The notes beneath the pieces were generated by a model, which saw nothing but the letters and a program-made list of their open reading frames with translations, had not been told where the DNA came from and made no database searches. A DNA stretch of 64,000 bases from contig CAIIXF020000006.1 of NCBI GenBank assembly GCA_903813345.2, forward strand, positions 8,484,989-8,548,988, read 5' to 3'. Below, in pieces: positions 44,501 through 48,376 of the stretch. The position numbers and the translations under genes are program-made. This DNA comes from Owenia fusiformis. Its lineage: Eukaryota; Annelida; Polychaeta; Sabellida; Oweniidae. The first letter of the stretch is position 1. The number at the start of each line of letters is the position of its first letter.

Positions 44501-47500
44501 AATACCTGACAATATTGCCACTATGACCTCCCCTACATTGAAGCAATCAATTGTGATTTTAGAAATTATCAATTCTCATGATTTTTGGAAAGGTTGCTGA
44601 TGAGATCTGATTCTGCTTTTTCTTTCGAAAGGACCATTTTTTTGATTTCTATGGGCCATTGATAAAAAGAAAATCATAAATCAAATTTGTTTTCTGAAAA
44701 AAAACACACGTTATGACTTTGAATAAATTAAGATAGCAGGGTGGATGTATTGATTAAATAAACAAGAAAAATGTTGTACAAACCTCTAGCCTTCCTGAAC
44801 ACTTTCTCATAAGCACGAATTGGCATTTTATACATGTGTATGTATCATAATCCGATGTAATCCAAATAAAATTCCAACTTCAGGTGTTTTATATATGTCA
44901 CTATTCCAGGTTTTGATTGTGCTCAGTTAGTTGAATAGTCCAAATGATTTCATGATATCACTTGTTTGATTTGCTAATAACCACAAGTTTAACCACAATA
45001 GACTTATAAAATGTATGTAATTGCAGTGTTTGAACACTCCCACATGAACACTGTGCCCCCTCTACCAGCTCAGTACAGTATATATCTAAGTCTAACAACT
45101 GATGTTTAAACCCAAATATTATAAAATTAATTAATCATTTGACGACATATAATTATGATAGATCAATTACAGATCCGATGACATTCCGATCCAATTATTA
45201 CATGTCCTTGCAAACTATGCCAGTCAAAAGTTGATCATACTTTTATTGACATATTTAAGAGTGATTGTATTGTTTAATAATATATAGAGCCACATATTGC
45301 GGTTTTTGATTCCTTAATTTCATATAGTTCAAGATAAATGTGTAATTTCATAAATTGTAGAAATGACTCAACAATCTGATTTAGTTTTCATGACACTATC
45401 TGACCCCCACTTGATGGATATTCCTCAGATTGTAAGAAATCTTATAGATCAGATTCGATTATCTAATTTTTTACTTCTTAATGTCTGACTAAGATTAGTA
45501 TAAAAGAAAACAAGGCATTAACATGAAAAATGTCACCACCTGCCATTTGGTACAGACACCAACCGCACAATGCCAAACACCAACCATCCAATGTTTTTGG
45601 TGGTGACATAATAAAAACACATACTTGTCTAGGGCAAATAAACCATGGGAAATTATATCAGTTGCTTACGTTGACTCTAAAATTGTAGCATTTATTTACA
45701 TTATTTTTATGATTGATATGAATTCTACGTCAGCAGGTGACTTATCCCCAAGCTGGTGTTGAGAATGATGATGTTTATATGATATGTACATTGTCTAGAT
45801 ATCTGGCATATAACACATATAGCTATACATATACAGAGAGTAATGATGAAATATGTCCATGACTTGTTAGAAATTGACACTGGTGGGACTTGTTATGACT
45901 GGGATGATAAACAGTCAAACACGAATGCCAATGGGACTGACCAAAAAGGTTGTTTTAACAGATGTTAACATTTTGAGGTTTTTAACATGAAATAAAACTT
46001 GATAAGTAATGAAATAAGATAGTTCATCATGATTTGTAAAGAATCAAATTCAAGCAAAGGTATACACTTCATGTTATGTATAAGGATCAAGCAATTTCTT
46101 CGCTTCATATATTGATATGCTGAGAATAGGAAATAAAAGAATTATAATATGATGGAAACAACCAAAATTGACAAAGATTAAATTAAGCTAATGACTGGAG
46201 GTAATCGATAGTTCCTTAAAGTGATTTTTCCATTAGTGGTCGACCAATGCATTACTAGAAACACAATTGGTCCTGTAAGATAAGAGATCTCAAATTGATT
46301 CTCGAAATTATAATTACAATCACTTTCAAGAGAATTTATGAATCGTAATTTCCATTTTTGAAGAAAAAGAAGTACAAATGTAGCATACTACGATGTTCTA
46401 AACTTAACTATCAATATTACTCCAACACTATGGCACTGGCCTTAAAATATATACAACGTTAATGGATTCTTTTTAATAACCACCTTCTTCTCTCAGGGAC
46501 CATAAAATGTATGGAAAAACATCAGCAATCACTAGAATGCAAGTATTAACCAAGTATACCATTGTTTGGTCACACCTGTATGTATTATTGCCTTTCTCTA
46601 TTACTTTGCATCAGGTGTATAATGTTTATGGTCACCTGAGTTCATATCAGGCAGAACGTACTGCAACTGTATGAGTTCATGCATTTATTCATTAAGCCTC
46701 TGAACCCCCTGGATCTACCTTTTTTCTATCATACTCCTTGTGGGAGATATTTGAGAAGGATGGGGAGGGACACAGGGGATTGGCAAATCTATATATTGTT
46801 CTATGAACGGTTGTCACTACTGTTAAGTAATAAATTCATTTTATCTATTTTTTATTTATTTATTAGAATGTTGCCAATCTAGATTAAGTTTCCCCGACCC
46901 CCATACCCCATGTTTGCCTGAGTCACATTTGCTCCGATTTTCAATACGGTGCCTAGGTGCCTTTTTTTCAAAGATGAATACAATTTTGAACAAAATATTT
47001 GATCGACTGGGCAGCGGTTTGAAAATTGGAGTAAATGTGACTAAGACATTACAAGGTATAACTTTAACAAGTGTACATGTAAGTTGATTGTCCCCATCCA
47101 GTGTTACTAAGCTTACCTTTGACAAGTGTAAGTTGATTGTCCCCATCCAGTGTTACTAAGCTTACCTTTGACAAGTGTAAGTTGATTGTCCCCATCCAGT
47201 GTTACTAAGCTTACCTTTGACAAGTGTAAGTTGATTGTCCCCATCCAGTGTTACTAAGCTTACCTTTGACAAGTGTAAGTTGACTGTCCCCATTCAGTGT
47301 TACTAAGCTTACCTTTGACAAGTGTAAGTTGATTGTCCCCATCCAGTGTTACTAAGCTTACCTTTGACAAGTGTAAGTTGATTGTCCCCATCCAGTGTTA
47401 CTAAGCTTACCTTTGACAAGTGTAAGTTGATTGTCCCCATCCAGTGTTACTAAGCTTACCTTTGACAAGTGTAAGTTGACTGTCCCCATTCAGTGTTACT

Positions 47501-48376: not shown

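Follow-up and report, generated by a model that had tools for sequence, protein, structure and literature searches.

Splice donors in series: a 49-bp minisatellite across an SH3 exon-intron boundary of Abl in Owenia fusiformis, and similar arrays at other exon edges

Repeats that run across exon edges, known as 'mirages', have been described in amphioxus, where two reports place them in Adh3, globin, TnC and PGBD5 genes and state that splicing remains intact in Adh3, TnC and the globins (PMC3087553, PMC3902484). The globin cases comprise BflGb6, with haplotypes of 3 and 6 units, and BflGb9 (PMC3087553, which also cites Canestro et al. 2002 for Adh3), while the PGBD5 mirage is presented, and TnC cited, in PMC3902484. 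In human F7, intron 7 has its donor within the first copy of a 37-bp repeat that occurs several times, and normally no donor but this most upstream one is used (PMC6627357, citing Borensztajn et al. 2006). Tandem duplication over AGGT or over a boundary has been put forward as a route of intron gain (PMC4974935, PMC2812944). Here we describe a minisatellite of repeated donors in the Abl tyrosine-kinase gene of the annelid Owenia fusiformis. The gene occupies the minus strand of a 64-kb stretch of contig CAIIXF020000006.1 (the window, to which all coordinates without a prefix refer), and the array lies at the start of the intron that follows the exon for the first half of the SH3 domain. With a probability of about 0.78, we consider it a mirage, that is, a tolerated minisatellite grown from a duplication of the exon-intron boundary and silent because the exon-proximal donor is used.

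The array was delimited with Tandem Repeats Finder (TRF). Its features are as follows (a slash marks a junction):

48179..48376, minus strand: 198-nt Abl exon for the first half of the SH3 domain, with GGGGACAATCAACTTACACTTGTCAAAG (GDNQLTLVK) at its end, phase 1
48173..48178, minus strand: authentic 5' splice site GTAAGC, the first in a series of 23; exon end AAAG/GTAAGC
47078..48211, minus strand: minisatellite (TRF), with a typical 49-bp unit made of GTAAGCTTAGTAACACTGGA (20 nt, intron start) and TGGGGACAATCAACTTACACTTGTCAAAG (29 nt, identical to the exon end); the call takes in the last 33 exon bases
47111..48129, minus strand: 22 further GTAAGC donors, with AG before each
47056..47077, minus strand: end of a decayed distal unit that has lost its donor (TGTACACTTGTTAAAG/TTATAC), followed by ordinary intron
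42870..48178, minus strand: whole Abl intron, 5309 nt
42676..42869, minus strand: start of the next Abl exon (second SH3 half and start of SH2), after CTTCCAG/GGGACCAG; anchored part only

When the two Abl exons were joined, Pfam recognised SH2 (5.3e-18) and SH3_1 (1.9e-13), and kinase-domain-like exons of the same gene were read by eye downstream of them. Human ABL1 presumably has an intron break at the residue matching the K/G junction of this intron, and judged by this match the array-bearing intron looks old.

TRF reported a period of 49 bp with 23.5 copies, 95% matches and a score of 2058 over 47078-48211, together with a second period of 335 bp (3.3 copies, 97% matches). Ungapped identity between the first unit and the exon end extends over the unit's last 29 bases; with one 1-nt gap, 33 bases align. 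Both the copy number and this identity bear out the original prediction that the SH3 exon-intron junction of Abl has been amplified into a minisatellite of donors. In the one assembly used, the minus strand carries 23 intact GTAAGC donors, the authentic one among them, over about 1.1 kb after the exon, with spacings (n=22) of 49 bp in 18 cases, 44 bp in two and 46 bp in two. The donor 9-mer is AAGGTAAGC in 21 of the 23 and TAGGTAAGC in the other two, and AG precedes every one of them. The proposed row of about 24 donors therefore holds as a long near-identical series, but only 23 are intact, and the 24th unit is a relic (AAAG/TTATAC at 47061). Among the genome matches to the array that were listed, 10 of 10 fall within the Abl locus. 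The plus strand carries 24 GTAAGT words in 47060-48211, so an antisense transcript would also face a donor series.

The Abl array shows several of the features by which mirages are recognised. Its unit spans the exon-intron boundary (20 nt of intron start and 29 nt of exon end), its units carry AG/GT splice signals (the 23 donors), and a homogenised centre is combined with a diverged edge, as indicated by the 335-bp period, by the occurrence of 7 variants in the 22 units and by the decay of the distal one. The amphioxus mirages and the arrays of the present host alike affect both 5' and 3' boundaries, with homogenised units and distinct cluster edges. They differ in lineage, the Hox peptides described below being spiralian and not lancelet, in the many genes involved here, and in size, since the 3 and 6 units given for BflGb6 contrast with 23 donors in Abl and 54 AGGTAAG words in the array L003. 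With F7 intron 7, Abl shares an authentic donor that is the first of a repeated series, whereas F7 is a single locus with a shorter unit whose first-donor use is stated outright and not, as in Abl, inferred. The array also resembles the reported tandem-duplication intron gain in its tandem copies bearing splice signals, but it enlarges an existing intron and creates none.

The use of each donor would have very different consequences. Donor 1 alone leaves the tested Abl stretch open, and all 22 downstream donors lead to a premature stop. Donor 2 adds 49 nt and brings a premature stop, as had been proposed; the stop, however, lies not in the following GTAAGC but in the next exon, where a TAA is reached after 28 nt. 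With donors 3-23, a retained TAA precedes the new junction by 45 to 1009 nt, and from donor 3 onward it is the TAA inside the second GTAAGC. The sequence of donor 1 is no better than the rest, its 9-mer being common to 20 others, and in predictions of local RNA structure it has no accessibility advantage (rank 11 of 23), a rank on which such structure was rejected as its selector. With neither a sequence nor a predicted-accessibility edge, donor 1 must be selected by its position if the gene works, presumably through exon definition or scanning from the exon. The option that the first donor is strongly favoured, raised in the original prediction, fits the 22 of 22 downstream stops, the 16 of 18 unreadable arrays reported below and the use of the most upstream donor given for F7.

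Under the mirage reading, the array would have started with a tandem duplication across the exon-intron boundary of the Abl SH3 exon and would have extended into the intron through slippage or unequal exchange; the decay at the distal end and the 335-bp period suggest this mode of growth. The spliceosome would then take the exon-proximal copy, which is the most upstream donor, and the other 22 donors would go out with the intron. The array would be tolerated because of this choice, and it is probably near neutral.

Exon-edge arrays recur in the Owenia fusiformis genome, and Abl is one of many. The genome (498 Mb) was scanned for donor words in threes with gaps of 20-50 bp, and arrays were read among the matches listed (about 100 places). 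This yielded 26 arrays besides Abl (6 + 10 + 4 + 6 by donor-word scan), the six places of one dispersed family being counted once. Of these sampled AGGTAAG or CAGGTGAG arrays, 17 start at the donor of an exon-like open reading frame (ORF). An acceptor-like AG was seen by eye upstream of the ORF in 16 of the 17, the piece for L017 starting within the exon, and the exon-like part of the first repeat measures about 7 nt in L019 and 12-55 nt in the other 16. Pfam matches at E<1e-3 were obtained for 10 of the 17 array-bearing exons, seven of them over the curated cut-off. The Abl array was originally held to be unusual, which may be right in general but is not so in its own genome, where 17 other sampled arrays are alike. 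A crude extrapolation from 4 anchored arrays in 10.2 Mb gives about 200 genome-wide for one word and spacing. The Pfam families of the array-bearing exons are:

Over the curated cut-off: BLOC1S5/Muted 5.9e-15; WD40 6.2e-9; tRNA_bind 3.5e-12; MRPL52 6.1e-7
Also over the curated cut-off: MINDY-3/4 1.7e-18; Rieske 3.4e-8; UCH 2.5e-8
Under the curated cut-off: dynein DHC_N1 9.8e-5; tetraspanin 6.4e-6; Cep192 1e-5

Weak matches were observed for L001 (tetraspanin, 0.058) and L023 (Lactamase_B_6, 0.02); a second version of the L001 peptide had no tetraspanin match in Pfam, and five array-bearing exons had no Pfam match (L004, L005, L021, L022 and L011/L044). The remaining 9 of the 26 arrays are dispersed repeats, start past the exon or are unanchored (L006, L009, L012, L013, L014, L020, L024, L046 and L047). 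L046 and L047 are two G-rich dispersed arrays, and the L006 exon matches tRNA-synt_2d (4.5e-4), its array starting about 50 bp past the donor.

Across the 18 anchored arrays, Abl included, unit length is a multiple of three in 4 and not in 14 (P=0.45 against 1/3), and a frame constraint on unit length is accordingly not supported. In 16 of the 18, continued reading beyond the first donor reaches a stop in three units or fewer. For the two others, L001 and L004, whose units are 54 bp long, the exon frame was open throughout the three units tested, and each unit would contribute 18 aa, in L001 a transmembrane-like stretch. The array L003 (C1:5.217 Mb) follows the WD40 exon, with its 54 AGGTAAG words mainly at 56-bp spacing. 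At the dynein-like exon of L008, a donor-side array occurs together with a duplicated acceptor side, TTTGCAG/GTGTGTGACAGTCAGATTCA being present twice. A dispersed family with the 22-bp unit AGGTAAGCACACTGTAATGTGT mimics donor arrays at C1:38277670, C3:7460085, C4:3454293, C5:12849928, C5:13837056 and C5:29433105.

The frequency of donor words in triples was compared with that of control words. AGGTAAG occurs in 1622 triples against 542 for the reversed word, from 62,892 single occurrences against 80,055, and is thus found in triples about 3.8 times as often per occurrence as its reverse. The counts were 414 against 46 for CAGGTGAG and 229 against 20 for AGGTAAGC, whose control word holds a CpG, while AGGTAAGTA, one of the four donor words, showed no excess (168 against 163). 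Single-word counts cover AGGTAAG and not AGGTAAGC, AGGTAAGTA or CAGGTGAG, and long arrays dominate the triple counts. For this dominance, and for the lack of excess in AGGTAAGTA, the raw match counts were dropped as proof of a donor excess. A count of arrays by hand among the matches listed gave 6 donor arrays over the initial 10.2 Mb of C1, compared with 21 control arrays over 91.8 Mb (P=0.048; 0.018 when scaled to word frequency). Twelve GAATGGA control places were inspected, with 24 flanking ORF rows, some ORFs appearing twice; of the 7 ORFs run on Pfam, one of them trimmed, 2 had matches (zinc finger and BEACH), each at least 75 bp from the array. L049 was rejected as a control array, its three GAATGGA words lying inside one long ORF.

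Arrays were also observed on the acceptor side. In the Hox cluster at C1:17.97-18.47 Mb, one peptide is of Lox5 type (EKLTGP) and two are UbdA-like (AIKEINEQ); we take these to be spiralian Hox signatures and not those of a lancelet. The genome gave no GFP match, a weak pointer in the same direction since no control genome gave one either, and no COX1 match. Within this Hox cluster (C1:18.29 Mb), a 76 bp x 13.4 array (L030:479-1497) runs up to the homeodomain exon of a Hox5/Scr-like gene and stops there; 11 of its copies retain TCAGATCA[GT]. The acceptor word TTTTCAG was found in 1648 triples against 302 and in 237,163 single occurrences against 123,037; many of the places listed are dispersed repeat families, and the 7 candidates read included one clear acceptor array at an exon, L036, whose exon is of the Sushi family (Pfam 4.4e-4). 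L039, another candidate, holds a small exon-like unit with apparent splice sites of both kinds. A homeobox sample, picked without regard to repeats, comprised 40 regions with 41 of 48 homeobox matches (six with stops were excluded and one more was left out). An overlap rule flagged 3 of the 40 loci, of which L030 is a true acceptor-side array; L088 was rejected since its repeat stops short of the acceptor, and L083 since its 18- and 21-bp repeats lie within a long ORF. Donor arrays need the first site and acceptor arrays the last, which is the exon-proximal site in both, and this suggests exon definition, more than one-way scanning, as the common rule.

Several points weigh against the mirage reading and against donors as favoured sites of such arrays. 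In vitro, duplicated identical donors often favour the intron-proximal site, which is the opposite rule. Donor use is inferred here from DNA, and copy number comes from one assembly. An edge array was present in only 1 of the 40 homeobox regions, and there on the acceptor side (L030), although this sample says little on donors because many homeobox exons may be terminal. When L046 and L047, the G-rich dispersed arrays, are left out, the array-level comparison becomes 4 against 21 and is not significant (P=0.24; 0.14 scaled), so the placement of arrays may be due to chance in a repeat-rich genome. This dependence on two dispersed repeats lowers the odds of a broader proposal, which we hold as possible but doubtful. 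In that proposal, 5' splice sites would be preferred birthplaces or refuges of minisatellites, and hundreds of genes would carry near-identical donor arrays, hidden by self-erasing AG/GT-to-AG/GT units together with the exon-proximal rule. If true, it would provide a genome-wide natural experiment on the choice among identical splice sites and, outside lancelets, a continuing supply of new introns.

The downstream donors could also have a function of their own. Some transcripts might be spliced from one of donors 2-23 and, with the premature stop so acquired, be degraded, the array length thereby setting Abl output. All 22 of these donors would supply such a stop, and with donors 4-23 it is followed by the new junction at a distance of 94 to 1009 nt, which is sufficient for nonsense-mediated decay by the usual rule. 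A stop is nevertheless the default, as 16 of 18 arrays in unrelated genes behave alike, and nothing in the DNA points to conserved copy number or regulation; such a regulatory role is improbable. Slightly better placed, but still unlikely, is an array that erases itself. Its units run from AG/GT to AG/GT, and splicing from a donor to a later AG would excise whole units and remake the junction, permitting the stepwise (recursive or repeated) removal of wrongly kept units. Recursive splicing takes place at AG/GT ratchet points, which the Abl units may resemble in having an AG/GT border with a pyrimidine-rich run before it and from which they differ in a spacing of only 44-49 nt. AG stands before all 23 donors, and at 7 of the 8 positions examined the 16-nt stretch preceding the final four bases holds 11 pyrimidines, the same as at the real acceptor, whereas the TAG unit has 8. 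On the other hand, a one-unit intron of 49 nt would be very short, and AAAG is a weak acceptor, with A at -3 in most units.

An assembly artefact, with inflated copy number or a misplaced repeat, would be consistent with the near-identical 335-bp blocks, which are typical of sequence mis-sized by assemblers. However, the variation among the units (7 variants in 22) and the decay of the distal one look biological, and similar arrays occur at other exons, which makes an artefact very improbable. We give the least credence to a length-variable protein, in which in-frame use of downstream donors would add peptide repeats: the open frames of L001 and L004 would allow this in 2 of the 18 arrays, but it is impossible for Abl and for 16 of the 18. 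The tolerated mirage remains our preferred account of the Abl array.

The papers listed by the literature searches, in which most subscription papers lay outside coverage, included no report of donor minisatellites at exon edges in spiralians; the accessible part of a paper on earthworm metallothionein describes intron minisatellites and exon duplications and mentions no repeated splice sites. The novelty seems to lie in lineage and number, since such arrays are already known from lancelets and human F7. The invertebrate exon-edge minisatellites that we found described come from amphioxus only, and a spiralian case suggests that they are widespread or have arisen repeatedly; they are also a proposed source of new introns. 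Which of several identical 5' splice sites is chosen has long been asked, mostly with the aid of artificial duplications. Natural donor series within one genome, such as the 23 in Abl and the 54 after the WD40 exon, would allow donor use to be compared by position, copy number and frame.

Other minisatellites were identified by TRF in the window, at 2383-4626 (unit of about 190 bp), 12805-14589 (about 119 bp), 21320-25322 (about 133 bp) and 62432-63063 (about 60 bp). In the last of these, both strands are open for about 180 codons.
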